Shown: in pieces, positions 4,723 to 34,841 of the stretch
How positions within the stretch are numbered: position 1 is the stretch's first letter
How the letters are laid out: every line of letters begins with the position of its first letter
Program-made: the position numbers and the translations under genes
Notes under the pieces: model-generated
Seen by the model: only the letters and a program-made list of their open reading frames with translations
What the model was told of the DNA's origin: nothing
Database searches by the model: none
Origin: Nitrospinaceae bacterium
GTDB lineage: Bacteria; Nitrospinota_A; UBA7883; JAJDBK01
Assembly: GCA_029261405.1 (NCBI GenBank)
Contig: JAJDBK010000001.1
Span: forward strand, 1 to 64,000
DNA: 64,000 bases
Reading direction: 5' to 3'

Positions 4723-7686
4723 TTATGAATTGCCCAAGCCAGGCATTTCGGTTTTCAATCTCTTCTCTACATCCCTGTACGCCCGAAGAACAAGTACCCT
4801 CTCCTCCGGTGTCGATTTCATTTTCAGCGCATTGCCGTAAAGTTCTTTTGCTCTCACAGGCTCGTCTAATTTTGTATCATACAACCCTGCGAGGTTTACG
4901 ACAGCAAGGAAATAGTTTTTGTCGAGTTTAATGGCCGACTTGAACTGAGTTTCCGCTTCGTCGGTCTTCCCCATTCTGGCGTAAAACATGGCGCGAAGGA
5001 AGTGGTACTGCGGTTCGAAAAGCTTGTCGTCGTCCAGTTTCTCCGTGTCCCCAAGCATAGCGAGGCCGAGATCGATCTTGTCCGCCGAGAGAGCTTTGTA
5101 TATTGTGCTTAAGTTAAGTGAGAGAAGAGCGTATCGAGCGTCCGGGTTGTCGGGGTTTTTCGCAAGGGCCTTATTAAACGCTCCGGCGGCGAGAGCCATC
5201 TTGTTGTCGTTCATAGCGATCCTGCCATCAAGAAAACTTGTCTGCGAATCGAAATAACTTTTAAACCGCTCTTGTTGCTCCTCAGTAAAATAGAAAGAGG
5301 GGGGGGGCTCCCTGAATTCAATAATGCCGGCAAGGTTGCCCCCCTTTACCGACACTCCGCCAACGCCTACCCGTGGCGCCGAAAACTCCACCGTCGGTTT
5401 GTCGTCGATCAAAGGTTCGATACCTTTCACATACTCTTTGAGTTGATCTCGTCCCATCATATAACTTGCGAAGAGTTGGTATGCGTTCCTGATTCCAAGT
5501 TCACCCAGACTCTTCGCCACTTCGGGAAACTCCATCCGCTCCTGAATCGTGTCGAGGCTGACAGGAGTTTCTTCCAGCGACCCGATCATGATAGCGTCCC
5601 ACTTGGTCAACCACATCGACGTATTCGGAAACACCTCGACGAACGAGGCCACAAGCGATTTAAAATCGGCTTCAGAGAGGTGATGCAACGGTATCCACTG
5701 TGAAACAATTCCACCCTTTTTCAAGCGCCTCGCCATCAGTTCGTAATACTCTTTTGTGTAGAGCGAAACAATACCGGCGTTCGATGGAGGTGGTGGTTCG
5801 GAGGTGATGAAATCGAAAAAACGCCTTGTTGTCAGGAGGTAGTTGCGACCGTCCTCTTCGATTATAGTCAGCTTTTCCGAGTTTGCGACTTCAAGGTTGC
5901 CCGCCTGGAAAAAATTGGCCGCCATGAATACCTCCCGTGATATATCCACGGCGGTAACGTTTTCGATTCTGTGGGTTTTAACCGCGCCCGCTGTCGATCC
6001 CGTTCCGAAGCAGATAACAAGAGCGTTCTTCGGGTCGGGATGTAGCAGTAGTGGGATATGGGCCTGCAACCGCTCCAGTTGCAACGCCTCCCTGAACGAT
6101 CCTGCGATCGGATCGCCGTTGATCCACAACCTCTTGAAAGGCCGACGACCCGGTGTCAGATCAGACTCCTGGCTTGAGACCAAAACTGTGGCGGAGGGTC
6201 CTTCCATGTAAAACTCCACGTCACTACCGGCGTCGAGTTTCTGGGTGGAGAGATAATAGACAACATCCGTATTAAGAAGCAGAAGAGCTGATACGGGTAA
6301 GGCCACTATCAGAGTCATCACCGCAAGGGGTGTTCTGGCTTTGAACGAACTTGTAAGAAGAGCGTAGAGACCAGACACAAGGGCGATCCACGCGATGAGA
6401 ATGACTCCCTTGTGAACTCCGATGAGAGGAATAAGGATAAACCCCGCCAAAATGGAGCCTGTAACACTACCTATGATATTTACGGCGTAAACACGACCAA
6501 TCTCGCCACCAGCTCTCTTTACACCTTCGGAAAAACCGGCGGCTATAGGAGGAAAACAACAACCCATAAGAAATGCGCATGGGCCAACGGTCAAGAGTGA
6601 AAACATGACCGCCTGGGCCATCGGCTCCCCACCCGGAATAATAGCGGCAAGAAAACCGCTCTCCCGCATTACGGAGTCGAGAATTCCGATGAGGGTCTCG
6701 TTAAGGGCGAACCCGAAAAGAGAGAAGAGAGCCAATATTCCAACACCCGTCTGGAACAGGGAGAAAAGAACCCTGTTAGAGTCTCTGGTCTTGCCGACAA
6801 ACTTCATCGCTACAGCGCTACCAAAACCGATCCCCAAAAGAAATACGGCAAGAATCAGGGTAAACGCATAAGTGGTGTTATTAAGCAGAAGGATCAGCGT
6901 CCTTGTCCAGAGCAGTTCCAGCGAGAGAGCGCAAAACCCCGACAGACCGTACAGAAACAGAAGTGTCATATCGGGTCTCGGCTGGTCTTTTATTTTTACT
7001 TTTTTTGCCGGAACAGATTTTTCCGATGCAACCTGGAATGCGGGTTCAGCGCCCACAAGCCATGCAACGACACCAAGTAGAATATTCAGCCCGCCGCCGA
7101 TCATCAATGTCGTACTGAGACCGAAAAGCTCGATCATCACAAACCCGGCGGTTATACAACCGACCATAGCGCCCAATGTGTTGACGGCGTAGAGCCATCC
7201 GGCGACTTTACCACCTGCGATTTCCCTGTTCATGGCGAAGAAACGAACCATCGCGGGCAATGTGCCACCCATCAGGGCCGTCGGTATAATCATGGCGGCG
7301 ACCGCCATACCGGCGCGTAACAGAATTATTTCGGGTGTCGCGCCCCCCTCGGAAACGTGTAACGTCACATAGAGGCTTTGCAGGATCGATAGGATAACCG
7401 GGAAGAGCAGTAGATAGACACCTAGCCCTATCTCAAGCGAGGCGTAAAGTCTGACAGGCGAGAACCCCTTGTCGAGCAGACGGCCAAAAAACTCCGAGCC
7501 GATCCCCAGACCCGCCATAAACGCCACTAATACCGCGCTTATGGCATAGACACTGACACCCAGAAACAAGGAGAGCTGTCTGGCCCAGACAATCTCATAA
7601 ACCAGCCCCAACGCGCCTGAAATAAAAAACAGGCCGATCAACGCAAGCTGTTTTGAAACGCCTGCGTTTACGATCTTTTCATTCAA
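4723..7686 (-). CDS. Polytopic spermidine-synthase-like protein with C-terminal TPR domain
   Basis: 987-aa membrane protein of the fused MFS/spermidine-synthase family. Residues about 12-460 hold numerous hydrophobic helices, with the family opening FFISGALGLVYEIVWARQL and later SGFCALSLELLWTRTLILLL. Residues about 490-740 are a spermidine-synthase Rossmann domain (LVICFGTGSTAGA, ENVTAVDISREV, EDGRNYLL, FDFITSEPPPPSNAG). Residues about 810-980 are TPR repeats. The catalytic-site Asp of true SpeE is replaced by SEPP, so polyamine synthesis is doubtful. The family has no settled role. It lies 3' of two beta-propeller genes with almost no gap, so it is probably in the NosZ-cytochrome operon. A paralogue lies at 14617-17367. 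Confidence 0.8.
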   Translation of the reverse strand: MNEKIVNAGVSKQLALIGLFFISGALGLVYEIVWARQLSLFLGVSVYAISAVLVAFMAGLGIGSEFFGRLLDKGFSPVRLYASLEIGLGVYLLLFPVILSILQSLYVTLHVSEGGATPEIILLRAGMAVAAMIIPTALMGGTLPAMVRFFAMNREIAGGKVAGWLYAVNTLGAMVGCITAGFVMIELFGLSTTLMIGGGLNILLGVVAWLVGAEPAFQVASEKSVPAKKVKIKDQPRPDMTLLFLYGLSGFCALSLELLWTRTLILLLNNTTYAFTLILAVFLLGIGFGSAVAMKFVGKTRDSNRVLFSLFQTGVGILALFSLFGFALNETLIGILDSVMRESGFLAAIIPGGEPMAQAVMFSLLTVGPCAFLMGCCFPPIAAGFSEGVKRAGGEIGRVYAVNIIGSVTGSILAGFILIPLIGVHKGVILIAWIALVSGLYALLTSSFKARTPLAVMTLIVALPVSALLLLNTDVVYYLSTQKLDAGSDVEFYMEGPSATVLVSSQESDLTPGRRPFKRLWINGDPIAGSFREALQLERLQAHIPLLLHPDPKNALVICFGTGSTAGAVKTHRIENVTAVDISREVFMAANFFQAGNLEVANSEKLTIIEEDGRNYLLTTRRFFDFITSEPPPPSNAGIVSLYTKEYYELMARRLKKGGIVSQWIPLHHLSEADFKSLVASFVEVFPNTSMWLTKWDAIMIGSLEETPVSLDTIQERMEFPEVAKSLGELGIRNAYQLFASYMMGRDQLKEYVKGIEPLIDDKPTVEFSAPRVGVGGVSVKGGNLAGIIEFREPPPSFYFTEEQQERFKSYFDSQTSFLDGRIAMNDNKMALAAGAFNKALAKNPDNPDARYALLSLNLSTIYKALSADKIDLGLAMLGDTEKLDDDKLFEPQYHFLRAMFYARMGKTDEAETQFKSAIKLDKNYFLAVVNLAGLYDTKLDEPVRAKELYGNALKMKSTPEERVLVLRAYRDVEKRLKTEMPGLGNS

Positions 7687-8727: not shown

Positions 8728-10053
8728 TTATCTAGTTCTGAAACGCCTGAACGCCCCATATCCGAGAGCAACGAATACCAGAGCCAACAGCCCCACGATC
8801 ATTGCTTTCCCGCCAAACAACCCACCTTCAGATTTACCTGTGGAACTGTTTTTAGTTTTGCCACGCTCTACCGGTTCTTCATTCGGCCAGCTTTTTGCCA
8901 CTATTTTGGCGAACCGATTCGCATGTCTGCCGCTCTGGGTAAACCAGATATCCCCGGCGGAATCGATAGCCATACTCATCGGTTGGGAATTGGTTGTCGG
9001 AAGGGGGAAGAGCCGCCATCTCAAGCTTGTCGAATCGAACCAACCGGCCTGATTCATCATGCTATCGACCATCCAGATCTTTCCGTCATCGGATATCACA
9101 TGCCCCTGCGGTACGGCATTATAACCGGGCAGGTCCACAACACTCATAATCCCCTGTTCGGTCATCAGAACAGCAAACTGCTGGGCGCGCATAAGGGAGG
9201 CCCAGATCAACTTGTTTTTGTCCATCCGCAATAATGTCGGCTGTGCCAGAGGGGTTATTACCGGGAATTTTTTAAGCTCACCACTATCTGGGTTGTATCT
9301 GCCTATGTAGTTGTTTGAAACCTCGGAAAACCAGACCATATCGTCTGGATCAACGATAATCCCCATGGGACTTGCAACGTCGCTGATCTTTATTTCGATC
9401 ATTTTTTTCTTTGTAAAATCGAGGTAGCCTATGGCGTGAATGTTCTTGGCGGCGAACCAGATTTTCCCCTTTGAATCTTCCGCCAGGTCGTAAGGCTGGG
9501 AGTTGGGAGTATTCATGATGAACTCCGTAAACTCCTCCTTCTCCGGGTCAAACCTTGTGACGGAGTTTCCAAGCTGTTGCACAAACCAGATCATTCCATC
9601 CCTGGCGGCCATTACTACGGTCGGGTTCCCCACGCTGTAGACATTGACAATTTCCTTCGGCGTGGTTCTATTGGATGGGTCATATTCCCATTCCTGGTCG
9701 GGCAGGTCGACGGTCGATGGAATCTTGTACTCCTTGAGTTCGTTTGTGGCGGGATCAAAAACCGCCAGCGCATTGCCGGCCATCTCCGTCACCCAGACTC
9801 GCCCTTTTCCGTCTACGGCGATACCGTAAGGGATTACATATTTGGTCGGCAGGTCATACTCGATGAGGATCGGCTCATTTATCGACTGACGCGGTTCAAT
9901 CTTCGTTACCACCGGTTTGACAATGCCGGATCTTGCGCCAGAATCGTCAGGAGTCTCCGCGTTTACCCTTCCGGTAAACAGCAAAAACGCCACACCCATA
10001 ACAAAGAGTGCGGCGGGGATTATTCGTGATCTACCAGGTGAATGTCGGTTCAT
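8728..10053 (-). CDS. Vgb-like beta-propeller protein with C-terminal membrane anchor
   Basis: 441 aa. The signal peptide spans residues 1-33, ending GRVNAETP. The propeller spans about 55-395, with repeats such as GRVWVTEMAGNALAVFDP, GKIWFAAKNIHAIGYLDF and DMVWFSEVSNNYIGRYNP. The C-terminus has one hydrophobic helix followed by basic residues (LLALVFVALGYGAFRRFRTR), so the propeller should face the periplasm tethered to the membrane. It overlaps the end of the cytochrome b subunit IV gene by 23 bases, which argues for translational coupling with that electron-transfer complex. A lyase function is unlikely. Confidence 0.75.
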   Translation of the reverse strand: MNRHSPGRSRIIPAALFVMGVAFLLFTGRVNAETPDDSGARSGIVKPVVTKIEPRQSINEPILIEYDLPTKYVIPYGIAVDGKGRVWVTEMAGNALAVFDPATNELKEYKIPSTVDLPDQEWEYDPSNRTTPKEIVNVYSVGNPTVVMAARDGMIWFVQQLGNSVTRFDPEKEEFTEFIMNTPNSQPYDLAEDSKGKIWFAAKNIHAIGYLDFTKKKMIEIKISDVASPMGIIVDPDDMVWFSEVSNNYIGRYNPDSGELKKFPVITPLAQPTLLRMDKNKLIWASLMRAQQFAVLMTEQGIMSVVDLPGYNAVPQGHVISDDGKIWMVDSMMNQAGWFDSTSLRWRLFPLPTTNSQPMSMAIDSAGDIWFTQSGRHANRFAKIVAKSWPNEEPVERGKTKNSSTGKSEGGLFGGKAMIVGLLALVFVALGYGAFRRFRTR

Positions 10054-10732
10054 ACATATGCCTCATTTGCCAATTTGCGTCTTTGTAACCACCCACATCG
10101 TCCGCTTCGGCCGTCGAAACCATCTCACCCGCCGAATCCTGACCTGCGGATTTGCCAGCGCGGTACTTGCCCACACCAATCTGCATGGCCCGCTCGACAT
10201 TATAATATTTAGCGACATCAGTAGGAGGTATAGCCATCCTGTATCCCATCGCAGGGTTATGACATGAGTCACATCCGTAGACCTTAGCCTGGTGTCCACT
10301 ACGGTAGACACCAGTAGTCAGGGCAACGGCGAGAATCAGCGCAGGAATGGCGTAGATAAAACTCTTGATAAATCCGCTCTCCATCTCTCTCGTCTTCCTC
10401 AAAAAGGCGCCAAGGAGGGGAATGCGATGAAGAGGAATCTTGTGAAAATAGGGTAACAGAGCGAATATTATTATAAGAAAAATCGGAACAAGCGCCGTAA
10501 GAAACAGGTACTTCTTCATGCTCCCTTTAAAGTACCAGAACGGTATCCAGAAGAGCAGAAATATCCACTCTGGCCCAGGTATGTCCGCGCCTTCGTCCGG
10601 CATCGGAATCTCCAGCGGAGCGTCGTCCGGCACCGGGTATATATCGGCCATGAATGCAACGAAGACAATTACCCCGATCATAATACCGATCAGTGTCAAC
10701 GCTATATGAGGCCACCATTTCCTGGTCTTCAT
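10031..10732 (-). CDS. Cytochrome b6f subunit IV-like protein with C-terminal c-type haem
   Basis: About 233 aa. The N-terminal half matches subunit IV / cytochrome b C-terminal domain, with TM helices and the quinol-oxidation-site region PGPEWIFLLFWIPFWYF, where the usual PEWY reads PEWI. After about residue 150 comes another helix (AIPALILAVALTTGVY), then a periplasmic segment with one c-type haem motif CDSCH and a tail ending MRHMYEPTFTW. The start chosen is the ATG at 10732 because GAGGG sits 7 bases upstream; the longer frame to 10753 begins with TTG before that ribosome site. It pairs with the cytochrome b N-terminal gene at 10786-11421 as a split b6f-like quinol oxidase. Confidence 0.85.
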   Translation of the reverse strand: MKTRKWWPHIALTLIGIMIGVIVFVAFMADIYPVPDDAPLEIPMPDEGADIPGPEWIFLLFWIPFWYFKGSMKKYLFLTALVPIFLIIIFALLPYFHKIPLHRIPLLGAFLRKTREMESGFIKSFIYAIPALILAVALTTGVYRSGHQAKVYGCDSCHNPAMGYRMAIPPTDVAKYYNVERAMQIGVGKYRAGKSAGQDSAGEMVSTAEADDVGGYKDANWQMRHMYEPTFTW

Positions 10733-10785
10733 TCTCTTCCCTCTTTTTCGCAACTACTCATCTGGTTAAGCCCGCATCTCTTTAT

Positions 10786-11421
10786 TCATACCTTTTCCGA
10801 AGGGCCGAGCCGCCTAAAAAGGATAAGGTGAATGACTATCAGCCCGACAATCATCACTGGAAGCAAAATTATGTGCATTGAAAAGTTTCGACCTAATGAA
10901 AACCAGGAGAGAAACGGCCCCTTCAAGAGACCTCCAATACCAGGAATGGTGTCTATCCAGTCGGCCCAGATGATTAGCTCCCAATAACTCCTCCAGTCCC
11001 ACGGCATGATAATACCTGTGATAAGCAGAAGTATAAAGAGAAAGGCAAGCGCCATTCCGGTCCACCAGTTAAGCTCTCTGGGTGGCCTGTAGGCCCTCCT
11101 GGCCAAGACATGAAAGACATGGACTCCCAGAAATACCGTGGCCACAGTGGAACTCCATCTGTGTACGTTGCGGAACAGGGCGCCGAAATCTGTGTTGTTA
11201 GCCATATCCCTGATGCTCTGGTGTGCTAAATCCGGCTCCGGGATATAGTACCAGAGCATATAAAACCCGGTAATAAACTGAATTATTATGCAACCGATGG
11301 TAAGTCCACCAAAATAGTGCCAGAAAGTTACATCATCGGTTATCGGATAGGCGATATGTTTGTTGTAAAACTCCACAACACCTAAGCGATCATCAAGCCA
11401 TTCAATGAAACGTTTCAACAT
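10786..11421 (-). CDS. Cytochrome b6-type subunit
   Basis: 211 aa with four transmembrane helices and both b-haem His pairs. One helix has H-x13-H (NVHRWSSTVATVFLGVHVFH) and another has H-x14-H (SMHIILLPVMIVGLIVIH). The 13/14 spacing is that of b6f/Rieske-type cytochrome b rather than mitochondrial bc1. The GMALAFLFILLLITGIIMPW segment is the conserved Qo-site helix. It starts one base after the lipoprotein gene and is followed by the subunit IV/haem c gene, so the pair forms a split cytochrome b. No Rieske protein is encoded nearby. The NosZ-like protein and propellers in the same run suggest delivery of quinol electrons to periplasmic copper or haem acceptors. Confidence 0.9.
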   Translation of the reverse strand: MLKRFIEWLDDRLGVVEFYNKHIAYPITDDVTFWHYFGGLTIGCIIIQFITGFYMLWYYIPEPDLAHQSIRDMANNTDFGALFRNVHRWSSTVATVFLGVHVFHVLARRAYRPPRELNWWTGMALAFLFILLLITGIIMPWDWRSYWELIIWADWIDTIPGIGGLLKGPFLSWFSLGRNFSMHIILLPVMIVGLIVIHLILFRRLGPSEKV

Positions 11422-11422
11422 A

Positions 11423-11923
11423 TTATTTCCCTGCTACTGGCGTAAGCTTCGCCTCAGGAGAGGCGCTTCTAAAATCATCTTCATTAATTGTTTGCGCAAG
11501 AAAATCGATACGCCATTTCATTTCAGCCTGATCCAGGATCAGATTCATTTGACTCGTTGTCTTAAACGTTCCGCCAAAGAAGGATGGTGTATCAATTTCC
11601 ATTTTGACTATTGCAATATAGTCACCATTCTCGTTCGGCTTGTCTGGTAATTTTGTTTCAGTGATCGTAATTTTTGATTCGCTACTAAAATTCTCGGTCC
11701 ATTTGCGAAAGGTATTCTGGTCGATCCCGCCATCATTACCATCAATCATCTGGAAAGCCTCCTTGTTCGTGAGCTTCCCGCTATCACCCAACAGATCGTA
11801 AAATCGCATTACAACTTTATCGGGTGACATTTCCGGAAATTTCATTTCCTGCTTCTGGGTGCAAGAAACGACCATAAGGGACGACAACGCCATAAATATC
11901 AAGGATAATCGCAAAGAATCCAC
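11423..11923 (-). CDS. Lipoprotein, NTF2-like, cytochrome-b-associated
   Basis: About 166 aa. The lipobox is LMVVSC near residue 21, followed by a soluble domain beginning MSPDKVVMRFYDLLGDSGKL, which resembles NTF2/DUF4878-type lipoproteins. The GTG start at 11923 is preferred because AGAGG lies 8 bases upstream; the longest frame begins at a TTG at 11947. The gene abuts cytochrome b6 and follows the NosZ-like gene after a strong hairpin. A second NTF2-like lipoprotein (31917-32513) accompanies the other cytochrome b. An assembly or docking role is inference. Confidence 0.6.
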   Translation of the reverse strand: MDSLRLSLIFMALSSLMVVSCTQKQEMKFPEMSPDKVVMRFYDLLGDSGKLTNKEAFQMIDGNDGGIDQNTFRKWTENFSSESKITITETKLPDKPNENGDYIAIVKMEIDTPSFFGGTFKTTSQMNLILDQAEMKWRIDFLAQTINEDDFRSASPEAKLTPVAGK

Positions 11924-11982
11924 CAAATCAACCTCTAATTTCAACAATAAATATCAGATAAATCAAGGGGCTGGACGCAGAA

Positions 11983-12049: not shown

Positions 12050-13849
12050 TTAGATGGTCGGCTCTTTACCTTCGTTCAGCGTATTCATCAGCTTGTTGGT
12101 ACCAACAATGAACTCATGCTCGGATGCGGCAAGGTGATCAGCCTGCATCGACATATCATCGTAGTCGCCGACACCGAGGGAGGCTTTTTCGCCACCCTTA
12201 GGATCGACAAAGAACGTACCGCGCATCTCCAAGTGAAGAGGTCCACAGAAATGCTGACAATAGAACTCGAACTCACCGGCTTTATCGGCAACGAACTCGC
12301 CCTGGGCAGACATTCCACGAACACCGATCAACATAGTTCTCTGACCATAATAACCAGCTACAGCAATACCCATCGTAACGTCCGGGTTCTTTGTAAGACC
12401 GGCCGCTTTATCGATATTGGTAAGGATCATCCTGACTTTGTCGCCCTGGTTTACATGAATAAACCTGGGAACATAACCGTAGGAGAAACCTTTGATGTGG
12501 ATAACCTTGACATCGCCATCCTGGGTGATACCAGGTTTGCTGTCGTCTCTGGGAATCCATACCCTGCTGGAGTTGGCCGTGTGGACCGGCTCAAGCTGGG
12601 GGCGCTGTTTGCTGTTAAGACCAGGGCCATCGTCGAAGGAGATGTGAACATCTCCAAGATCATAGCCCTTGGAGAAGAGATCCTCACCTTTACCAGTATT
12701 CCATCTCTGGATGTAGCTGGCGAAGATCATTCTTCCTTCATGCGGCTCGCCGTCAACAGGGATGAGCTTGACCGATTTACCATAGGTAGCGGAGGTCTCA
12801 TCAAGGTCCTGTAACTCGAAGTTAACCGCGAAGACAATACCGGTCGGAGTGAACAGACCGGTGGAGAACTTGTTCTGCGAAGAGTAGTAAGCGTTATCCG
12901 GAGCTATGGCGTTGTGACCGGGTCTGTAGTGAACCGGGAACTCATCCACGAGCTGGAATCTCTGCATATCTACTTTGGAAGTGGAGTCAGACACGAAACA
13001 AGAGATGTAGTCATACTTGCCGAGTGTGTCAAACTGGTTGTGCAGAGGACCGGCGCCGACCGGGATAACCTTGTGAACTTTCAGCTTCTCCACGTCGATG
13101 ATCGACAGGGTGGCGGAAAGCTTGTCACAGGTGCTGACAATACGGTTTGTCGGGCTGACGTTGGTTCCGTGCGGGTTTTTACCGACCGGAATTTCCTTGA
13201 TCAGCTTGAACGGATCCTGGCTGAAAACCATGACCGCAGAGTGGTAGTAGTTACCCGAGAAGACGTATTTGCCGTCTTTACTGGTATCAGGATAATCCGG
13301 TGCGCTAGGCGCAGGCGGGATATCCAGAACGGTGGTGGCTCCGTCAGAGAGGCGCAGTTTCAGCATCTTACCGGTAAGCTCGCCTGTTGCGAACAAGTAT
13401 TTACCGTTAGGAGCCAAAGCGGCGCTGTGATGGATACCGAAAGGTTTCGGCAGAGCGAATACTCTCTCAGCCCAACCAGTCTGAAGGTTTACCTCAGCGA
13501 TAGTATCGGAGCCTTTGTCCGAAACGTAGAGGTATTTACCATCAGGAGTACCGTTGTTGTTACCGGCGTTGGAACCGGAGAACGGAAAGTTGTGAAGATC
13601 AACGCCGCACTTGATGTGGCGATAGGTCCTCATGGACGGGATACCGATGACACCAAGGGCGCCATCAACTCCGCCGGCATCATAAAGAATGGCGTAGTCA
13701 CGTAACGGTGCGTCACTGTCCTGAGGAGCAATGACCATCCAATCACGTTTATCAAAATCAGTCAGAACAGTCTTTTTCGCCTCTGCCGGCACGACGATCA
13801 TAAGAGCGCCAAGAAACGCGGCAAGACTGAAAGTAAGGACTCTTTTCAA
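12050..13849 (-). CDS. nosZ: Divergent Sec-secreted nitrous-oxide-reductase-like (NosZ-like) copper protein
   Basis: Periplasmic protein of about 599 aa: Sec signal peptide (KRVLTFSLAAFLGAL..PAEA, no twin arginine), seven-bladed propeller, C-terminal cupredoxin. NosZ landmarks appear in order: VDLHN (86-87), GIHHSA, NPHGTNVSP, GAGPLHNQF, RPGHN, GEPHEG, then CQHFCGPLHLEM (Cys531, Cys535, His539, Met542). Six of seven CuZ His positions are kept, but the second His of the DxHH motif is Asn. The distal CuA His (normally in DLTHGF) appears replaced, reading GLTKNPDV, and the Trp between the cysteines is His. N2O reduction is therefore not assured. The TTG start at 13849 is chosen because GAGGGGGG lies just upstream, the signal peptide begins there and overlap with the preceding gene disappears. 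No nosDFYL or nosR genes are seen. Confidence 0.75.
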   Translation of the reverse strand: MKRVLTFSLAAFLGALMIVVPAEAKKTVLTDFDKRDWMVIAPQDSDAPLRDYAILYDAGGVDGALGVIGIPSMRTYRHIKCGVDLHNFPFSGSNAGNNNGTPDGKYLYVSDKGSDTIAEVNLQTGWAERVFALPKPFGIHHSAALAPNGKYLFATGELTGKMLKLRLSDGATTVLDIPPAPSAPDYPDTSKDGKYVFSGNYYHSAVMVFSQDPFKLIKEIPVGKNPHGTNVSPTNRIVSTCDKLSATLSIIDVEKLKVHKVIPVGAGPLHNQFDTLGKYDYISCFVSDSTSKVDMQRFQLVDEFPVHYRPGHNAIAPDNAYYSSQNKFSTGLFTPTGIVFAVNFELQDLDETSATYGKSVKLIPVDGEPHEGRMIFASYIQRWNTGKGEDLFSKGYDLGDVHISFDDGPGLNSKQRPQLEPVHTANSSRVWIPRDDSKPGITQDGDVKVIHIKGFSYGYVPRFIHVNQGDKVRMILTNIDKAAGLTKNPDVTMGIAVAGYYGQRTMLIGVRGMSAQGEFVADKAGEFEFYCQHFCGPLHLEMRGTFFVDPKGGEKASLGVGDYDDMSMQADHLAASEHEFIVGTNKLMNTLNEGKEPTI

Positions 13850-13874: not shown

Positions 13875-14297
13875 TTATCTCTCATGTTTGTAGAATGCGC
13901 CAGCTTTAGCGTCGGCGGCAAGACGTTTCACCAGATAGTCGTCCCGATCCAGGATATCGATCCTGCGGGCGTTCCACTTTCCGTCTTTGTGCCAGCCGTA
14001 AGCTGCGATCAGGTCACCTTTTTTCAGCTCGGTGAACTTTTTAAAATCTGCGCGTTTTGCAGTCATGACATAGCACTCCGCCAGAAGATCAAGCTTGTAC
14101 GTTTTTGAAGTCTTCTCAAACGCAGTCTTGATTGTAACCTGTCGGTCGCCAAGGCTAGTGATCTCCCCGATCTGCAAAGTGTCCGTTATCGCAGAGCCAT
14201 TACCCAGGACTCCAGCGTCAGCGGTTTTTGCATTTGAGGCGGTGAAGACCAGACCGATCGCCAACAAACAGGCTATCAGAAGATGTCTTTTAATCAC
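13875..14297 (-). CDS. Small secreted protein, DUF5666/OB-like
   Basis: 140 aa beginning with GTG; AGGGGGG lies 7 bases upstream. The signal peptide spans residues 1-28. The mature part reads as a small beta-barrel (LQIGEITSLGDRQVTIKTAF, LKKGDLIAAYGWHKDGKWNARRIDIL), reminiscent of DUF5666 proteins. A single Cys and several His could bind metal, but no defined site is visible. It is the first gene of the NosZ-like cluster, 25 bases before nosZ, and follows a sigma-54-like promoter. A copper-handling or assembly role for the NosZ-like protein is a guess from position. Confidence 0.6.
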   Translation of the reverse strand: MIKRHLLIACLLAIGLVFTASNAKTADAGVLGNGSAITDTLQIGEITSLGDRQVTIKTAFEKTSKTYKLDLLAECYVMTAKRADFKKFTELKKGDLIAAYGWHKDGKWNARRIDILDRDDYLVKRLAADAKAGAFYKHER

Positions 14298-14616: not shown

Positions 14617-17367
14617 TCATTGTTCGGTCAATAACCCTTCGGCTATCTCAGGCTTAAGCTTGGCAAGCTCACTGAACGCTTCGACCGACTTTTGTTTCTG
14701 GCCGAGGAACTGGTACGACTTTGCCAGGTAGAAATGAGCTTCCAGAAGATTGTAATTAATCTTCTTGACCCACTCGAAAAATTTTACCGCCGTAGCAAAG
14801 TCCTGACGATGATAATAGAGGTATCCCAGATCAAAAACCGCTAATCCGAGAAACGGATCACCCGGAACCAGTTTATACGCCTCCTTATAGAGTTTCAGCT
14901 CTTCCGGATAGTTCCTCTTTGCATGTTCTATCTTCCCCTGTAACAGGAACGTCCTGCCGTGGTAATAACGCTCAATGGCCTTATTGATGGTCTCATCCTC
15001 TTCCGTCCCCAGCAGACGCGCATTGAGCTGTTTCCTCCGTTTTTTTATCTCTGTAAAGTTATTCACAGCGTTCATCTTCCGATCCCACAGATATTTTGGC
15101 GCAGTAAACTCCACCACCGGTCGATTATCGGTGTTTACGGGACTCCCTTGCGTGAAATCGAGAATGCCATCGCGGTCCATCACATAGAAACTGAGGAAGG
15201 AGAGTGGATCGGTGTTTTCGATCATGTCTTCTTTCACACCCGGCGCCTCAAGCCTTGCAAGGAGTTTATCGGGAGATATCCTTATGGGGTCCGCCGAGCC
15301 GTAGAGCATTATCGTGGGAAGCTCACTGTTTAAATCCCCGGAAAAGACGAGTGTATATTCAAAAGCGGTGGCAAAAGTTTTCATTACCACTTTGAGGTTT
15401 TCAGGGGAGAGCTGATACATGGGAAGCCACTGGGCCATGGCGCCCCCCTTCTTAAGTTTCGATTTCACATCGAGAAAAAATTCCAGGGCGTAGAGCGACC
15501 CCACTCCCGCGCTATCGGGCTGGAACAGATCAGAAATCACCAGATCGTATTTACGTTTTGAGGCCCGCACATAGTGCCTGCCATCCCAGAATGTAAGGTG
15601 GAACCTCTCGTCGGCGATGATGTTGTGGTTATCTTTTGCGAATAGCGGATGTACGTCGAGAAGGGAGGGTACGATCTCCACACACTCGATCCTGTCAAGC
15701 GGGTGTCTGCCGACAGATCCTGAGGTTATTCCGGCTCCGAGGGAGATAACCAGCGCATCCTTCGCCTCAGGGTGCAACAGCATCGGAATATGCCCGAACC
15801 GGACCGCCACGTCACCCGATGTCGCCAACTGGTAATTATTGACGTGCAGTGTGAGGTTACTGTTTTTCCGGGTCACCTTGACCGATCCCATAACCTCCTC
15901 TTTTGCGAAGACGATCTCCTCGCCGACCGCTACGCCAAGCCCGATATTAACTCCGGTGATCTGCATCGACACAATGACCGCAAGGGTCACCACCGTCGAT
16001 ACTGTGTAGACCCACATGGCCCCTCTCCTTGAGGCGGAGACGAACATGGCCAGAAAACCTGTCAGGAGAGTTATCACCGAAATGACGAAGAGTCCGTTTT
16101 GCAATCCAAGGGAAGGTAGCAGAAAAAATCCAGCCGCAAGTGAGCCGACTATGCCTCCAACGGTCCCAACGGCGTAGACCTTTCCAGCTTGTGTACCGAG
16201 TGACTCGATCGAACCTGTGTAGACCTTGCAAAGTAGCGGGAACGACATGCCCATGAGAACTGTTGCGGGACCGAAGATCGTCGCCATGAGAATAAGCTGG
16301 ATCAGCGCGTCCTTGGATAGATTCATCTCCCCGAAAATGGAGGTCATCGATAATGCCCAGCCGGGCGCGCCGATAAAAGAGATAACGCTGATTACGCCCC
16401 ACACTCCGATCCCGACCTGCGCCAACCCGAAGAGGTGGACCGGGTCCTTGAGTCTGTCGAGCCATTTAGTGAGAATGTGACTGCCGATGGCCATGCCGAG
16501 CAGGAAGACCGCCAGCAGGTTGCTGAACAGATAAACAGTTGATTTGAACGAGACGACAAACGCCCTCGTCCACATTATCTCGAACGCCAGAGCGGAAAAC
16601 CCCGACAGGAGAGCCAGTAGAAGAATCAGTCCCGGATCGGGTTGATACGCCGTTACCTTTTCGCTTATCGACGGTTCGACCCTGAGTTCTTTTTTCCTCT
16701 TCGACTTCTGGCGTGGTGTCGATTTTATTTTTGGAGCTTTGTTTGCTGTCTCAGGAATTTTCGGTATCCAGGCCACTAAACCGGCTACAGCAAGATTCAG
16801 AAGTAGGGCGATCGTAAACGCTCCAAACACACCGAACGAACTGATAAGGAGAAATCCGGTCACGAAACAGCCAACCACAGCTCCGTAGGTGTTGGCGGCG
16901 TAAAGGGCGCTCAAACCCTTACCGAGATTGTCGTAAGTCGTAATGTAGACACGCGCCATTACGGGAACGGTCCCACCCATAAGTGATGTCGGCGCCAACA
17001 AAAGTATGAACAGGATAACGAATCTGATAAACTGCCACTTGCCCGAACCTATCGACTCCACATCCATAAGCGATACGATAGCGCCATCCACGAGTTGGAT
17101 CAGGCATGTAACCAGCACAGCGCTCAACGCAATCATCAGCTCTAACTTGACGTAGGTTTTGATCGGGTCCCTGATCTTGTCAATCCTCGCTCCCCAGTAG
17201 CGGCTTCCCAGAGCCAACCCGGCCAGAAAAGCGGCCACCACCATGGAGGCGGCGTATACGGTGTTTCCGAAAACAAGGGTGAACATGCGAACCCAGACAA
17301 CCTGATAGATAAGGCCTGCGGCTCCTGAGAGGAAAAAACAAGCGAGAAAAATCGACTTCGGGTTCAT
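14617..17367 (-). CDS. Polytopic spermidine-synthase-like protein with C-terminal TPR domain (paralogue)
   Basis: 916 aa with the same architecture as the protein at 4723-7686. About residues 5-460 are membrane helices opening FLSGAAGLIYQVVWVRMFTL and repeating LSGFSALAFEIMWTRAFVV. A basic linker of KRKK type sits near 220. A Rossmann methyltransferase-like domain follows (LVISLGAGITSGSVG, IECVEIVPSLLDV, WDGRHYVRA, YDLVISDLFQP), then TPR-like helices (DFATAVKFFEWVKKI, LLEAHFYLAKSYQFLG). It is the last gene of the sensor operon, 50 bases after the NtrC-like regulator. The domain's Asp of true spermidine synthases is present as DLF, unlike the paralogue. Its role is unknown. Confidence 0.8.
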   Translation of the reverse strand: MNPKSIFLACFFLSGAAGLIYQVVWVRMFTLVFGNTVYAASMVVAAFLAGLALGSRYWGARIDKIRDPIKTYVKLELMIALSAVLVTCLIQLVDGAIVSLMDVESIGSGKWQFIRFVILFILLLAPTSLMGGTVPVMARVYITTYDNLGKGLSALYAANTYGAVVGCFVTGFLLISSFGVFGAFTIALLLNLAVAGLVAWIPKIPETANKAPKIKSTPRQKSKRKKELRVEPSISEKVTAYQPDPGLILLLALLSGFSALAFEIMWTRAFVVSFKSTVYLFSNLLAVFLLGMAIGSHILTKWLDRLKDPVHLFGLAQVGIGVWGVISVISFIGAPGWALSMTSIFGEMNLSKDALIQLILMATIFGPATVLMGMSFPLLCKVYTGSIESLGTQAGKVYAVGTVGGIVGSLAAGFFLLPSLGLQNGLFVISVITLLTGFLAMFVSASRRGAMWVYTVSTVVTLAVIVSMQITGVNIGLGVAVGEEIVFAKEEVMGSVKVTRKNSNLTLHVNNYQLATSGDVAVRFGHIPMLLHPEAKDALVISLGAGITSGSVGRHPLDRIECVEIVPSLLDVHPLFAKDNHNIIADERFHLTFWDGRHYVRASKRKYDLVISDLFQPDSAGVGSLYALEFFLDVKSKLKKGGAMAQWLPMYQLSPENLKVVMKTFATAFEYTLVFSGDLNSELPTIMLYGSADPIRISPDKLLARLEAPGVKEDMIENTDPLSFLSFYVMDRDGILDFTQGSPVNTDNRPVVEFTAPKYLWDRKMNAVNNFTEIKKRRKQLNARLLGTEEDETINKAIERYYHGRTFLLQGKIEHAKRNYPEELKLYKEAYKLVPGDPFLGLAVFDLGYLYYHRQDFATAVKFFEWVKKINYNLLEAHFYLAKSYQFLGQKQKSVEAFSELAKLKPEIAEGLLTEQ

Positions 17368-25515: not shown

Positions 25516-26877
25516 TCAATCAAAATGGGATGTTAATAGCCGTTCAATTTTTCCGTCAAGTTCCATGACCACATTGTCCGAGCCGCTTATGGCGAATACA
25601 TAACCCCTGGGCGTTTTCTTTCCGATGTTAAGATAAACTGGCGCTACGCTTCCTTCCGGCCACACCAGTAATTTAACGGAGGGAGGATCAAGCCCGAACT
25701 TCTTGTCAGTAGGCGGAGATGAACTGTCAAAGTCCTCGATTTTATAACTTACAAGCTCGTTAAGAAACTCGTTTATAATGAGAATGGAGACCATTTCGCC
25801 GCTGGCGTTGTTCTTCCGCCACTCCTTGGCCACATCCTTTACAAAAACATGCGCCTTTTCGCCCTGGTGAATTTCAAACCTCTTAAGGTTGTCCTTATCA
25901 AAAAAGAAAAGCTCTCTGCTACGCAGGTCTTTGGTCTGCCTCGGTATGGCGTGCACCGTATCCTCCTCCAAAAGGAATACGTTATTCCGATCCGACATGG
26001 CGCAGTAGTATCCCCTCTTTTCAGGACTCCGGTTACCCACTGTCAGGGTTACCGCAGGCTCCGGGGCGCCAGCGGTCCAGAAGTGAAGTACGGCCTTCGG
26101 TTTATCGAGGCCATACTGCGAAGGGTCATCTTTTGTCTCGGCGATAAACTCCTTCACCTTGGCGTTGACGAATGTACCGACAAGCTCAAACACCCTCGCG
26201 TTATCCGCAACGGCTTTCACCGGTTTTTCTATCTCCCACTTCGAGGCGCCTGACGCGGGAAGTTTAAGGCGCAACGACAGCTCATCCCGTGTTATGGCAA
26301 GCTGATCGACAGTAACCGGATTGAGGCGCAGAACAGTTTTGTCCCTGAAATAATAGACATCCTTGTTCGCCTCGGATCTGGCTGAAGCCAAAACCCTGTA
26401 GACCGGTTTAGCCCCCTTGAGTCGCGCGAAAGCCACACCCATCGACGCCGCCCGGTCCCCGAAAAGCAGAGTGTACGATTTAAGATCGCTCCCCGTCTGG
26501 AGAGTGACACTTACTGTCGGTTTGTTCAGCCCGAACTCCTTCAAACGCTTGTCGGTCGGCTCAGGGTCCATCACATATTCAGCGTCGTTCCTCGAATCGG
26601 TAACGTAACCCAAAAATTTCTCGACTGCCTCATCCTCGGCTTTCGCTTCAATCGGCTCTACTATCTTCCACCCGGTGTCCCATCGCTCCAGGGCGATCTG
26701 GCTCCCCTCTTTCTTGAGCGTGATACGCAAAATCTCTATCGGATCAAAAGGAAAGAGCCTTGTCTCTTTGTCTTTCCTCTCCTCCTCAAGCCTGGTTTGC
26801 TCGAAGTCGAAAAAGCTGTAACCCCCGATGGCGGTCAGGACAATTATCCAGAGAAATGTCGTTTTGAAATATCTCAT
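25516..26877 (-). CDS. DUF4340 protein associated with Gld-type ABC exporter
   Basis: 453 aa with an N-terminal TM anchor (FLWIIVLTAIGGYSFF) and a periplasmic region of three similar domains, each with the pattern W-x-I-x-x-P and later FGLDxPxxxLxxxxG (KEFGLNKPTVSVTL, QYGLDKPKAVLHF, KFGLDPPSVKLLVW). This is the DUF4340 family, usually encoded beside GldG/GldF-like exporters, as it is here. It probably works with the exporter on the periplasmic face. The exact function is unknown for the family. Confidence 0.8.
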   Translation of the reverse strand: MRYFKTTFLWIIVLTAIGGYSFFDFEQTRLEEERKDKETRLFPFDPIEILRITLKKEGSQIALERWDTGWKIVEPIEAKAEDEAVEKFLGYVTDSRNDAEYVMDPEPTDKRLKEFGLNKPTVSVTLQTGSDLKSYTLLFGDRAASMGVAFARLKGAKPVYRVLASARSEANKDVYYFRDKTVLRLNPVTVDQLAITRDELSLRLKLPASGASKWEIEKPVKAVADNARVFELVGTFVNAKVKEFIAETKDDPSQYGLDKPKAVLHFWTAGAPEPAVTLTVGNRSPEKRGYYCAMSDRNNVFLLEEDTVHAIPRQTKDLRSRELFFFDKDNLKRFEIHQGEKAHVFVKDVAKEWRKNNASGEMVSILIINEFLNELVSYKIEDFDSSSPPTDKKFGLDPPSVKLLVWPEGSVAPVYLNIGKKTPRGYVFAISGSDNVVMELDGKIERLLTSHFD

Positions 26878-26924
26878 TGTTTAAAAGATATTTCTGTTTG
26901 TTCGTTCTATCAACTCCACACCCC

Positions 26925-28490
26925 TCAATTGAACCATCGTCTTCGGCTATATACGCCGATTCCAAGCAGTAACACGGAAGCTGGCACCATCACGACCGGC
27001 ACCCAGAAGATGGCCCGCCCCTGGGTCGCAGTCAGGACCACCGGGGTTATGTCCCTCTTCTTGGCTCGCACCGCAATCAGGTCAGCCTCCTCTGCAAGCC
27101 AGCTTATGGTGTTCAAAAACAGGTCACCGTTACCGGCGAGGTTGATATTGGTATTATTGGCGTAGTCGGAGTCTCCCACAAGAATCATCTTCCCGTATCG
27201 TTGCCTTATGCTCCCCTCCTCGTCCTTCTCCTCGGCTACGGTCACAGTGGTCACCGCCATTACAGGCACAGGACCACGCTTCTCTGTAACCTCGTTATAC
27301 TCAGCGTTCCCCGATTCGAGCTGATCACGATCAAGCTCCGTCCAGCTGTTGGCGCCTGTCATGGCAAGCTGGTACTGCCCCTTCTTCGGGTCTTCGTCAA
27401 TATAGACCGAGTTGGCTATGGAATAATAAGTAGCCAGGGTAAAGTCCTTGGTCATGGGATGTTTCTTGTCGTAGGCGTAGACCACGGGAGTCATCGGGTT
27501 GGCGCCGTACAGTTTGCTCTGCTGGTCAATTACCACGTCGTTTTGCAACTTGAACCCGTAGTTTTCAAGCCAGGTCTTGAATCCGGGAGGATGGCCCGGA
27601 TCGACCGATACCAGCATCGCTCCACCCCGTCTGTAATAACGGTCCAGTTTCTCCAGGCCATCCGGGGTTATCTCCCGCCTCGGGCTTGCCACTACCACAA
27701 CAGACGCATCTTCCGGCACCTCATCCACCCGCATCAAAAAAAGTTCCTTGATCTCGTAGTTCTCGTTAAGGATGGCGTTCCGGGCGGCGCTGTAACCATC
27801 CTTACGGGTGGAGGCGAGATCCTTTTCACCCTCACCCTTGACGAAATAGATATATTTCTGTTTTTTGCGTAACAGCTTGATAAGGCCGTTGGTTATCTTT
27901 GTCTCCCGTTCCGTGCCAACCTTAACCTGCTTTCCAGCGGCCATTAACAGCATGATTCTGTATTCGGAGACCCCATATTTAGAAGCCAGTCCGGGGTTAC
28001 GATCAGGGTCTATAAACCGAAAAGAAAACTTGTCGGAATAGCTGGCGTACTCTTCAAGAAGGTCGCTTGCTTTCTGTTTTTGCTGGGCGTGCATGGTTCC
28101 CGACTCGGAGCGGTAGAAGGCTACAGCCTCCACAGGGGTATCGAGCGCTTGCAAAATTCTGATCGTCTGGGAAGAGAGGGTGAATCGACCGGTCTTCGTA
28201 AGATCGACCCTCTGCTTGTGGGTATGCCCGAGGATAGCCATGAAGATAACCACTCCGGCGAATACGACAATCATGACAACCATGTTGGCGCCATATCTGG
28301 CGCTTTTACCGCCAAGGAGCTTTTTTACCTCCCCGAACTTAACATACAACAAAAAGAGGCCGATCATCAGCCCCACCCACATGAAACCCGCCGATTTCAG
28401 GGACATAATGCCGTCGATGGCGTAAAATCCAAAACCGATGGCCAGAAGCGCCGCTCCTGCGGTAGCGATTATCAACGTCGGTGAAAACAC
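26925..28490 (-). CDS. GldG-like ABC exporter auxiliary protein
   Basis: 521 aa beginning with GTG (GAGGGGG upstream). The N-terminal four-helix membrane part spans about 1-90. The long periplasmic region opens RVDLTKTGRFTLSSQTIRIL, then SYSDKFSFRFIDPDRNPGLA and VVVASPRREITPDGLEKLDRY (the GldG/ABC_transp_aux signature). The C-terminus has a TM segment and basic tail (SVLLLGIGVYSRRRWFN). The GldA/F/G exporters were named for Bacteroidota gliding, but homologues occur widely in non-gliding bacteria. The gene is followed by DUF4340 and preceded by the permease. Confidence 0.85.
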   Translation of the reverse strand: MFSPTLIIATAGAALLAIGFGFYAIDGIMSLKSAGFMWVGLMIGLFLLYVKFGEVKKLLGGKSARYGANMVVMIVVFAGVVIFMAILGHTHKQRVDLTKTGRFTLSSQTIRILQALDTPVEAVAFYRSESGTMHAQQKQKASDLLEEYASYSDKFSFRFIDPDRNPGLASKYGVSEYRIMLLMAAGKQVKVGTERETKITNGLIKLLRKKQKYIYFVKGEGEKDLASTRKDGYSAARNAILNENYEIKELFLMRVDEVPEDASVVVVASPRREITPDGLEKLDRYYRRGGAMLVSVDPGHPPGFKTWLENYGFKLQNDVVIDQQSKLYGANPMTPVVYAYDKKHPMTKDFTLATYYSIANSVYIDEDPKKGQYQLAMTGANSWTELDRDQLESGNAEYNEVTEKRGPVPVMAVTTVTVAEEKDEEGSIRQRYGKMILVGDSDYANNTNINLAGNGDLFLNTISWLAEEADLIAVRAKKRDITPVVLTATQGRAIFWVPVVMVPASVLLLGIGVYSRRRWFN

Positions 28491-28494
28491 TGCT

Positions 28495-29274
28495 TTACCC
28501 CCTCCAACGCTTCGATTCGAGCGAGCGCATACTTAAAAATATGAAAAACAACGTGAACAACAGGTAATAAATCACATCAGAAGTGTCTATCACTCCCTTG
28601 GCGAAGTTTCTGTAGTGGTATGTGAACGATAGATAGTTGAGTACCGCTGACATAGTTTCGCCAGCGGCGCCTGCAGTGAAATTGAGCATATAAAGGATCA
28701 GAAGAGCCGCAAACGAAAGTACAGCGGCTACTATCTGGTTTTCGGTTATCGACGACATGAAAATACCGAGAGCTATGAAACCGCCCCCCATGAGAATAAG
28801 GCCGAAATAACCTGTGATGATAACCCCCCATTCAGGGTCGCCGAACAACTCCACAAGCAGGATCGACGGGAAAGAGAGAGTCAGCATCAGAAAGAATATT
28901 GCCATGCAACCGCCAAACTTCCCCATGATCGCCTCCCCGTCCCGCACAGGGAACGTAAGAAGCAGTTCCATGGTTCCCGTCTTTTTCTCTTCGGAGAAGG
29001 AACGCATGGTCAACATCGGCAACATAATCAGCATAACCACGCTTATGATCCCGAAAAAGGGGCGTATCACAAACTCTGTTACATTAAGCGCGCCATACTG
29101 GGTGGCCATTGTAGGGTCTGTCTGGGCCTGGAAGCTGATGGTGCTAAACGATGCGAATATGTTGTAAAAATAGTAGCCGGTCAAAACGGAGAATATCGTC
29201 ACCACAACAAAAGCCACAGATGAGTTGATATATGACCTGACCTCTTTTAAGAGGATGAAGAGAAAGTTTCTCAT
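28495..29274 (-). CDS. ABC-2 type permease (GldF-like)
   Basis: 259 aa with six hydrophobic helices. Conserved family segments are FLFILLKEVRSYINSSVAFV, IRPFFGIISVVMLIMLPMLTMRSFSEEKKTGTMELLLTFPV (read in parts) and MGGGFIALGIFMSS. It overlaps the ATPase gene by four bases and precedes the GldG-like gene by four bases. It forms the membrane part of the exporter; the exported substrate is unknown. Confidence 0.85.
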   Translation of the reverse strand: MRNFLFILLKEVRSYINSSVAFVVVTIFSVLTGYYFYNIFASFSTISFQAQTDPTMATQYGALNVTEFVIRPFFGIISVVMLIMLPMLTMRSFSEEKKTGTMELLLTFPVRDGEAIMGKFGGCMAIFFLMLTLSFPSILLVELFGDPEWGVIITGYFGLILMGGGFIALGIFMSSITENQIVAAVLSFAALLILYMLNFTAGAAGETMSAVLNYLSFTYHYRNFAKGVIDTSDVIYYLLFTLFFIFLSMRSLESKRWRG

Positions 29275-30218
29275 ACTATGTCTTTCTCCTCGGTAACTAT
29301 CTGTATAAAAATATCTTCAAGGCTCATCCTCATCGGAGTAAGCTCGTGCAAATCCCATTTACCCTCTATCGCCGTCCTGGCGACCAGAGGGGGGCCGTTA
29401 ATGCCTTCGGCGAACTCTACTGTATATTTCGCCCGGTCAACGCCATCGCCGTTCTCCACCAAAATGTTGTTGACCCCCGCGATCCGGCCAAGAGCCGCTT
29501 TAACGTCTTCCGCTACCCCTTCTATTACAGCCTTGACCTTATTGGCCACCCGCAGTTTCTCCGTCAGACTCTCCGGTGTGTCGATCGCCTTGATTCTTCC
29601 CTCGTCGATGATGGCAACCCGACCGCAGATCATGGAGACTTCAGGGAGAATATGACTGCTCAATATGATCGTTCTGTCTTTTCCTAATCCACGAATCAGA
29701 GACCTTATTTCAATAATCTGCTTCGGGTCGAGACCGATGGTCGGCTCGTCGAGGATAAGAACGTCCGGGTCGTTGATCAACGCTTGCGCCAGCCCCACCC
29801 TCTGTCGGTATCCTTTGGAAAGTTCGCCTATGAATTTGTCCGCCTTGTGGGTTAACCCCACCTGTTCCATAATCTTTGCGACCTTCCCCTTTATCTCCCG
29901 ATAAGGAAGCTCCTTCAGGCCAGCGACATACCTTAGATATACCGGAACCAGCATGTCGGTGTAGAGTGGCACAGTTTCGGGAAGGTAACCTATACGCCTT
30001 CGCACGTTTAGCGAGTCTTCGAACACATCGTAACCGGCGACCCTCGCTGTACCCGATGTAGCCGGCATGAAACATGTGAGAATACGCATGGTGGTGGTCT
30101 TTCCAGCCCCGTTCGGCCCTAAAAACCCCAATATCTCCCCCTTTTCAACCTGGAAAGATATATCGTTTATTCCACGCGCCTCACCGTAGGTTTTCGTAAG
30201 GTGTTCAACTTCAATCAC
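29271..30218 (-). CDS. ABC exporter ATPase (GldA-like)
   Basis: 315 aa. Walker A GPNGAGKTTT (about 35-44), Q-loop region RIGYLPETVPLY, signature LSKGYRQRVGLA, Walker B VLILDEPTIGLDP, and the switch His in ILSSHILPE. An accessory C-terminal domain follows (about 220-315). It resembles NosF superficially, but the neighbours (GldF, GldG, DUF4340) identify it as the Gld-type exporter ATPase. It is the first gene of the run; a minus-strand TATAAT is at 30311-30306. Confidence 0.85.
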   Translation of the reverse strand: MIEVEHLTKTYGEARGINDISFQVEKGEILGFLGPNGAGKTTTMRILTCFMPATSGTARVAGYDVFEDSLNVRRRIGYLPETVPLYTDMLVPVYLRYVAGLKELPYREIKGKVAKIMEQVGLTHKADKFIGELSKGYRQRVGLAQALINDPDVLILDEPTIGLDPKQIIEIRSLIRGLGKDRTIILSSHILPEVSMICGRVAIIDEGRIKAIDTPESLTEKLRVANKVKAVIEGVAEDVKAALGRIAGVNNILVENGDGVDRAKYTVEFAEGINGPPLVARTAIEGKWDLHELTPMRMSLEDIFIQIVTEEKDIV

Positions 30219-30396: not shown

Positions 30397-31524
30397 TTAT
30401 TTCTTGTCCATCGCCCAGTCGCCAATTTTGGCGCTGGCATCGGAATCAGAGGTTTTGAGACCTTTTTTCACACCAACCTGCATGGAGGAGAGTCGTCCGC
30501 CACCGATGGAGGAATAACCACCAACCTGCTTGCCACCACGTCCGGCCATCTCACCCGGAAGCTCCAACTCTTCGTTCATATCAGTGAACTCTTCGGAGTC
30601 AGCGGCGTTAGCGGCGGTTACATATTCCGGATCCGCAACATATTTCGGCTTGTCGGCCAATGTGCGGATGAAAGCAACCATGTTCCAGATATCCTGATCC
30701 TGAACGATGTTACCCCAGGGAGGCATAGCTACACCAAGGTTTCTCGCGGCGCCGCCACCCTTGATGACTTTGAAAAGATCAAGGTTGGAGATGAAGTTGG
30801 CGTATTTGCCGTTGGTCAGGTTACGAGGTCTCGGATCCAGCTTGGCCGCTGTGGGGCCATCGCCTTTACCGGTCCAGCCGTGACAGTGCACACAATAGAA
30901 GGAGAACCAGTGAGCGCCCTGATCGGGGTCGGCTCCGGCTACAGGAGTTCCACCGTCATGACGAGGGCGGGTAATGTTGTTCCACTGGTTGACCCACTCG
31001 TTGTAGTCACCACCAAGTTTGGAACCGGAATCGTGCTTACGAAACCACGCTTCTGTAATACCTGATTTCTCACCCCAACCGGAAGCTGTGTCGCCAAGCT
31101 GACCGGTCCATTCGGTTTTGTAACGACCTTTCATCAGACCAGCCAACGGGCTGTTGTTAGCGGAAACGATCTTGCCGCCGCCAAGAGCCTCAGGCAGGTC
31201 AGCGCCGATCTTATCGGGAGCGGAGGCTACCTTGCCAACACCTGTCAGGTAATCAAAGCCTGTGACACCGTAGGTCGAGGCGCCGGAAGCTTTTTTGTTG
31301 GTATCTGTATCAAAAGTCTCAATGTTCGCTTCATCAGCTTCTCGCCCGAAGGACTCTCTGGCTTTTGCCAAGGCTTCATCAGACTGGTCACCAGCTTTTT
31401 TAGCGGCGTCAAGATCCGCTTTCGATTTTTTCGCCGCACTTGCGTCGGTCGGCGCCATTACTGAGACAGCCACAAAAGCTATCGCCAGCAAGCAAAGAAA
31501 CGCTCGTTTAAATGTTAAGCTCAT
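30397..31524 (-). CDS. Large monohaem c-type cytochrome
   Basis: About 375 aa with a signal peptide (about 1-30, ending TDASAAKK). A charged linker leads into an unusual 180-residue N-terminal part. A class-I cytochrome domain follows with CVHCHGW (about 210) and AMPPWGNIVQDQDIWNMVAFI, where Met is the probable sixth ligand. The C-terminal tail is Gly/Ser rich (GGKQVGGYSSIGGG). The start at 31524 is chosen from GGAGGGG just upstream. It is monocistronic, with its own sigma-54-like promoter and a strong terminator. Probably a periplasmic carrier for the adjacent cytochrome complexes. Confidence 0.85.
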   Translation of the reverse strand: MSLTFKRAFLCLLAIAFVAVSVMAPTDASAAKKSKADLDAAKKAGDQSDEALAKARESFGREADEANIETFDTDTNKKASGASTYGVTGFDYLTGVGKVASAPDKIGADLPEALGGGKIVSANNSPLAGLMKGRYKTEWTGQLGDTASGWGEKSGITEAWFRKHDSGSKLGGDYNEWVNQWNNITRPRHDGGTPVAGADPDQGAHWFSFYCVHCHGWTGKGDGPTAAKLDPRPRNLTNGKYANFISNLDLFKVIKGGGAARNLGVAMPPWGNIVQDQDIWNMVAFIRTLADKPKYVADPEYVTAANAADSEEFTDMNEELELPGEMAGRGGKQVGGYSSIGGGRLSSMQVGVKKGLKTSDSDASAKIGDWAMDKK

Positions 31525-34828: not shown

Positions 34829-34841
34829 AGTTATAATCCTC

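Follow-up and report, generated by a model that had tools for sequence, protein, structure and literature searches.

A probable clade III (lactonase-type) nitrous-oxide reductase of Nitrospinota with altered copper-site residues

Nitrous oxide (N2O) is a greenhouse gas that is destroyed by nitrous-oxide reductases, and to our knowledge N2O reduction is the sole biological sink step for this gas. The stretch of Nitrospinaceae bacterium DNA that was analysed here (64,000 nucleotides, referred to as the window) contains a nosZ-like gene whose product lacks residues used as copper ligands in canonical NosZ. Is this protein an N2O reductase, and is it of a new class? An earlier note, made from the sequence alone, proposed either a divergent N2O reductase class or an enzyme with another substrate. 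We consider it likely that the protein represents the Nitrospinota branch of the clade III (lactonase-type) N2O reductases, with activity predicted, and N2O reduction at a remodelled copper site is its most likely function. The coordinates of the features discussed are collected in Table 1.

Table 1. Features of the nosZ locus and associated genes in the window, with the evidence for each.
Feature	Coordinates	Strand	Evidence
Vgb-type beta-propeller 2, 345 aa	7687-8724	-	PF24684; cluster 2
Vgb-type beta-propeller 1, 441 aa, C-terminal transmembrane segment	8728-10053	-	PF24684; cluster 2, 29 loci
Subunit IV-like membrane protein, 240 aa, PEW motif, C-terminal CxxCH (heme c) domain	10031-10753	-	Cluster 4, 26 loci; CDSCH motif at 10273
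Cytochrome b6-like subunit, 211 aa, b6 heme-ligand His spacing kept	10786-11421	-	PF00033, 113 bits; cluster 3, 27 loci
Lipoprotein-like protein, 174 aa, directly downstream of nosZ	11423-11947	-	Cluster 1
Clade III-type (lactonase-type) NosZ, seven-bladed propeller and CuA-type cupredoxin	12050-13849	-	NF052460; PF10282/PF18764; AF2 and Foldseek; 47-row alignment
CuA loop CQHFCGPLHLEM, both bridging Cys, His539 and Met542 kept	12224-12259	-	Alignments
M493 at the distal CuA His position (PsNosZ H583)	12371-12373	-	Alignments
H370 (H494 equivalent) and E371	12737-12742	-	Alignments
H140 (H178 equivalent) and H141, additional His	13427-13432	-	Alignments
D84-L-H86-N87, DxHH motif with second His (PsNosZ H130 position) replaced by Asn	13589-13600	-	Alignments
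Secreted protein, 140 aa, directly upstream of nosZ	13875-14297	-	Cluster 6
Gld-type ABC set	25516-30218	-	
DUF4340 protein of the ABC set	25516-26877	-	DUF4340
GldG-like protein of the ABC set	26925-28490	-	PF09822
ABC-2 permease of the ABC set	28495-29274	-	PF12679
ATPase of the ABC set	29271-30218	-	
Cytochrome c, 380 aa, adjoining the ABC set	30397-31539	-	Homologues in 23 loci

The open reading frame is intact, begins with TTG and encodes 599 aa carrying the Sec-type signal sequence LKRVLTFSLAAFLGALMIVVPAEA, in agreement with the Sec secretion proposed earlier. The protein matched NF052460, the NCBIfam model for the clade III lactonase-type nitrous-oxide reductase, with 607.7 bits (E = 1e-182); this is below the equivalog cut-off of 700 bits and leaves the protein outside the equivalog. 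The canonical NosZ models TIGR04244 and TIGR04246, whose cut-off is 625, gave only 126.6 and 169.3 bits, and the matches to PF10282 and PF18764 identify a lactonase-type propeller. The best solved-structure matches by sequence (phmmer) are all N2O reductases, as are the nearest solved folds (Foldseek) of an AF2 model with a pLDDT of 81, so that the alignment with NosZ over propeller and cupredoxin described in the earlier note holds for both sequence and fold. None of the solved-structure matches listed for the protein bears the label 'lactonase-type enzyme', and a viral fold search returned generic propellers only. Full-length homology, the lactonase-type propeller and the CuA cupredoxin place the protein in clade III in the broad sense. 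The dN/dS of the gene relative to its nearest relatives is about 0.07, indicating strong purifying selection. The gene is real, conserved and of a known kind, not an orphan class. A divergent N2O reductase class was thus the right kind of assignment but not a novel one, as the class is the clade III or lactonase-type NosZ that has already been described. N2O reduction is reported for this clade (L-NosZ; He et al. 2025, doi 10.1038/s41586-025-09401-4).

A scan of named genomes yielded 44 loci, from the Nitrospinota branch and from Nitrospirota, Myxococcota and Pseudomonadota. Clade III-type nosZ is present in 16 of 24 Nitrospinota genomes, none of which reaches the 700-bit cut-off of NF052460, and is rare elsewhere (a single case among about 360 additional genomes, and 6 among 395 genomes from one other phylum). 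Many members of the other branch score above 700 bits, with some below at 659-690. Identity to the window protein is 75-88% within the Nitrospinota branch and about 50-59% for the other phyla. The clade III alignment has 47 rows, 43 of them distinct (17 Nitrospinota and 30 others, of which 26 are distinct); of six additional sequences taken from one other phylum, four are identical or near-identical to loci already included. In a tree obtained by a short search without bootstrap, the Nitrospinota proteins form a single clade (SH-aLRT 100) and the window protein groups with the clade III members, apart from canonical NosZ (branch 3.58, SH-aLRT 100). A tblastn search of plasmids found canonical NosZ only and no clade III sequence. 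Four records titled Nitrospirae (L020, L021, L027 and L029) have nosZ genes and neighbourhoods that group with the Nitrospinota branch, and their titles are probably older than the current taxonomy.

A joint alignment with six canonical NosZ and a profile alignment were used to locate the CuZ ligands. H86, H140, H227, H270, H312 and H370 map to P. stutzeri H129, H178, H326, H382, H433 and H494. The P. stutzeri residues follow PMC11573801, the mutant names of the structure matches and the usual numbering of this enzyme. Six of the seven canonical CuZ His of clades I and II are therefore kept. In place of the seventh, the second His of the DxHH motif, the window protein has Asn, as the earlier note had read it, and this His is found in none of the 47 clade III rows: all 17 Nitrospinota proteins carry Asn there, and the 30 other rows (26 distinct) all carry Glu. 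H141 is invariant in the 47 rows and absent from canonical NosZ, and H203 is likewise invariant across clade III and lacking in canonical NosZ. The K454-equivalent Lys, K327, and the Glu of the EPH motif are also invariant in all 47 rows.

The CuA site retains Cys/Cys/His/Met. The CuA residues and the six CuZ His show the same pattern throughout the 47 clade III rows, among them the proteins that score over the equivalog cut-off. The canonical set of two Cys, two His and one Met is incomplete in that the distal His is replaced by Met493, and Met occupies this position in all 47 clade III rows. The absence of this His had been noted previously but was placed at GLTKNPDV; in the joint alignment GLTKN falls within a six-residue insertion and M493 sits in NPDVTMG. 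Two of three alignments (joint and phmmer) put M493 at the H583 position and hhalign puts K487 there. The inter-cysteine Trp has changed, as stated earlier, but the change does not remove a side-chain ligand: in NosZ the Trp binds CuA2 through its backbone carbonyl only (PMC11573801), and it is missing in canonical clade II NosZ too (CTNFC and CTEFC in the joint alignment). The hhalign placement, together with the extra His adjoining the H178 equivalent, might be taken to mean that the protein is an ordinary canonical NosZ whose ligand losses are alignment errors. We regard this as very improbable and already largely refuted, since in the joint alignment every clade III sequence has a residue other than His at both positions, the tree separation is deep and the propeller is of the lactonase type. 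A compensating His at the CuA and CuZ positions, which the earlier note took as the mark of an ordinary NosZ variant, is absent by strict position, with H141 only adjacent to the H178 equivalent. The window protein shares with clades I and II the domain order, six of seven CuZ His and the four CuA residues, and differs from them in the loss of H130 and of the distal CuA His, in its propeller and in its accessory genes.

Judged by the alignments, the altered ligands are a signature of the clade III family and are not peculiar to the window gene. The window protein shares with other L-NosZ the full-length match, propeller type, CuA loop, distal Met, operon, lost DxHH His, H141 and H203; besides its NF052460 score below the cut-off and an identity of 53-59% to the others, it differs in having Asn87/Glu371 instead of Glu87/Asn371 and in the extra 140-aa secreted protein encoded upstream. 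In these alignments Asn87/Glu371 is peculiar to the Nitrospinota branch. Position 371, after the EPH His, is Glu in Nitrospinota and Asn in every other clade III sequence, so that Glu and Asn are swapped reciprocally between two positions that each directly follow a CuZ His. The 47-row alignment contains no intermediate of the exchange, which amounts to a single event on a single branch. Fixed differences between the two branches are confined to six columns (E>N87, I>N313, L>Q325, N>E371, K>R373 and R>H465). Three of the six are ligand-adjacent, an enrichment that is suggestive only (P = 0.0075 for strict columns, P = 0.33 at a 90% threshold). The pattern suggests that an acid near CuZ may be retained in Nitrospinota but supplied from another blade, 371 in place of 87, and H141 is a candidate replacement for the lost His at the H130 position.

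Of the seven CuZ His in P. stutzeri NosZ, H382 is the only one that can be replaced without abolishing metalation (PMC11573801). An Asn at the H130 position may therefore mean that no normal CuZ is formed. Profile searches found neither NosD over the cut-off nor NosL in any of the 24 Nitrospinota genomes; the genome of the window (G000) has a NosD match of 42 bits against a cut-off of 300, and no NosL match. Among 27 clade III genomes (24 of the other branch), NosD is over the cut-off in one and NosL in four. The weak NosD matches (42-93 bits) lie below the cut-off, and such matches also arise in controls such as B. subtilis. The NosZ-like protein of the Nitrospirota 9FT-COMBO-42-15 MAG nzgw271 (PMC11033732) belongs to the same family, and a locus from this MAG (L056) scores 747.6 bits; an AF2 model of the L056 protein that was run without an alignment has a pLDDT of 34 and is uninformative. 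The nzgw271 NosZ-like genes have a lactonase-type propeller and are transcribed in groundwater, and nosDFLYX genes were reported in this MAG (PMC11033732). MAG nzgw271 has Glu87/Asn371 and a NosL that was confirmed by our search, whereas no NosL was found in the genome of the window.

The earlier statement that the gene is without nosDFYL and nosR neighbours is correct for NosD over the cut-off and for NosL, but a set of ABC-2 ATPase, permease and GldG-type genes is conserved with nosZ, as is a quinol-oxidising cytochrome b module (10031-11421). Upstream of nosZ, the Gld-type set and the adjoining cytochrome c keep their order in three other Nitrospinota contigs (G004, G008 and G018). The ATPase of the set has homologues close to clade III nosZ in about 13 loci from other phyla, and the cytochrome c has such homologues in 23 other-branch loci. 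The permease matches PF12679, a family to which NosY also belongs, and the set may be the counterpart of NosFY. Downstream of nosZ, the module from the lipoprotein to the Vgb propellers is kept in 26-33 loci that span Nitrospinota, Nitrospirota, Myxococcota and Pseudomonadota; the lipoprotein occurs in 33 of the examined loci, some 1.1-1.4 kb away from the centre of nosZ. A search of the window for a Rieske motif gave none. The 140-aa secreted protein has no Pfam match and is present at all 16 other Nitrospinota-branch loci and at one Nitrospirota locus (L034). This neighbourhood, common to the window nosZ and other clade III nosZ, also places the gene in the broad family. Two paralogous MFS-spermidine synthase-TPR fusion proteins (4723-7686 and 14617-17367, minus strand) flank the operon, and the pair recurs in Nitrospinota loci.

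One form of the N2O reductase reading, included in it rather than exclusive of it, is that the copper cluster of the enzyme is smaller or poor in sulfide (three Cu, for instance) instead of [4Cu:2S] and is made without NosDFY/L. The family-wide replacement of H130 and the scarcity of NosD and NosL in the 27 clade III genomes are consistent with such a cluster, and H382A PsNosZ contains a stable [3Cu:2S] cluster (PMC11573801). That known three-copper form is inactive, however, and the Gld-type ABC genes may replace NosFY, and we consider a smaller cluster rather unlikely.

The genome of the host provides a context for the substrate. Canonical NosZ was not found in it, and a single cluster encodes cytochrome cd1 NirS (402 bits), NirN-like, NirF-like and NirJ proteins, which makes N2O a plausible host metabolite. 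Beside this cluster are genes for a heme-copper oxidase-family protein, which could be a NO reductase, and a COX2-like subunit. Nothing was found in favour of another substrate, and the NirS gene set fits N2O. Divergent heme-copper oxidase-family proteins are also encoded at L140:14977-16497 and L138:1471-2814, with FWGFGHSSQQ and FWGGGHTLQ motifs, and are candidates for unusual NO reductases.

The protein could instead be a NosZ-fold copper protein that has lost N2O reduction and has another periplasmic redox function, such as CuA-only electron transfer or the reduction of another small molecule. The loss of the H130-position and distal CuA His, the absence of NosD and NosL and the score below the equivalog cut-off would fit such a protein. 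It is nevertheless unlikely, since the remaining CuZ His, K327 and the EPH Glu would not need to be invariant in 47 rows if the cluster site were non-functional. In addition, the Met and the lost H130 are also found in clade III members that score over the cut-off, and N2O reduction is reported for the clade (He et al.); the host also has NirS. An N2O reductase therefore remains the preferred reading, against which stand the score, the Asn at the H130 position and the lack of NosD and NosL, and its activity is a prediction from sequence.

We infer that Sec would carry the Nitrospinota enzyme across the membrane in unfolded form and that copper would be inserted in the periplasm in the absence of NosD or NosL, perhaps with assistance from the Gld-type ABC transporter and the pair of Vgb propellers. 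Quinol would supply electrons, which would travel by way of the cytochrome b6/subunit IV-heme c module to a one-His CuA and then to a CuZ-like cluster, where N2O would be reduced to N2; the 380-aa cytochrome c may also be in this path. The missing H130 position would be compensated by the extra His141 and by a carboxylate, located at position 371 in Nitrospinota and at 87 in the greater part of the family. In the host, N2O reduction would follow NirS as the final step. A more specific proposal is that N2O is reduced at a copper site chemically distinct from CuZ, formed by six His and a carboxylate (perhaps with the extra His) and served by a one-His, two-Met CuA, that the site is built by the Gld-type transporter and Vgb propellers in place of NosD/NosL, and that the carboxylate moved between blades in Nitrospinota to give two natural versions of the site. 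We put this forward as a tentative possibility. If N2O is reduced without a His that is taken to be essential for metalation in P. stutzeri, the textbook model of CuZ chemistry and maturation would be too rigid. The reciprocal Glu/Asn exchange offers a natural pair for asking which residue replaces the lost ligand, and this branch-specific exchange and the alternative accessory module are worth following. Clade III NosZ is common in Nitrospinota yet falls under the annotation cut-off, and surveys may leave it unnamed.

Two further gene clusters are present on the minus strand of the window. The first (34448-40760) is rich in cytochromes and encodes a CydA-like protein of 646 aa, several c-type cytochromes and an NxrC-like subunit of the ethylbenzene dehydrogenase/type II DMSO reductase heme b type; similar sets occur in L145, L041 and L054. 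The NxrC-like and CydA-like genes raised the possibility that the host is a nitrite oxidiser, which was rejected as the genome has no type II DMSO-reductase (molybdopterin) alpha subunit. The second (41459-47609) is a corrinoid methyltransferase set that includes a 953-aa protein in which a MtaA/HemE-like domain, a ferredoxin domain and an AcsV-like corrinoid activator are fused, and the gene for this fusion adjoins those for a corrinoid protein and an NtrC-type two-component pair.
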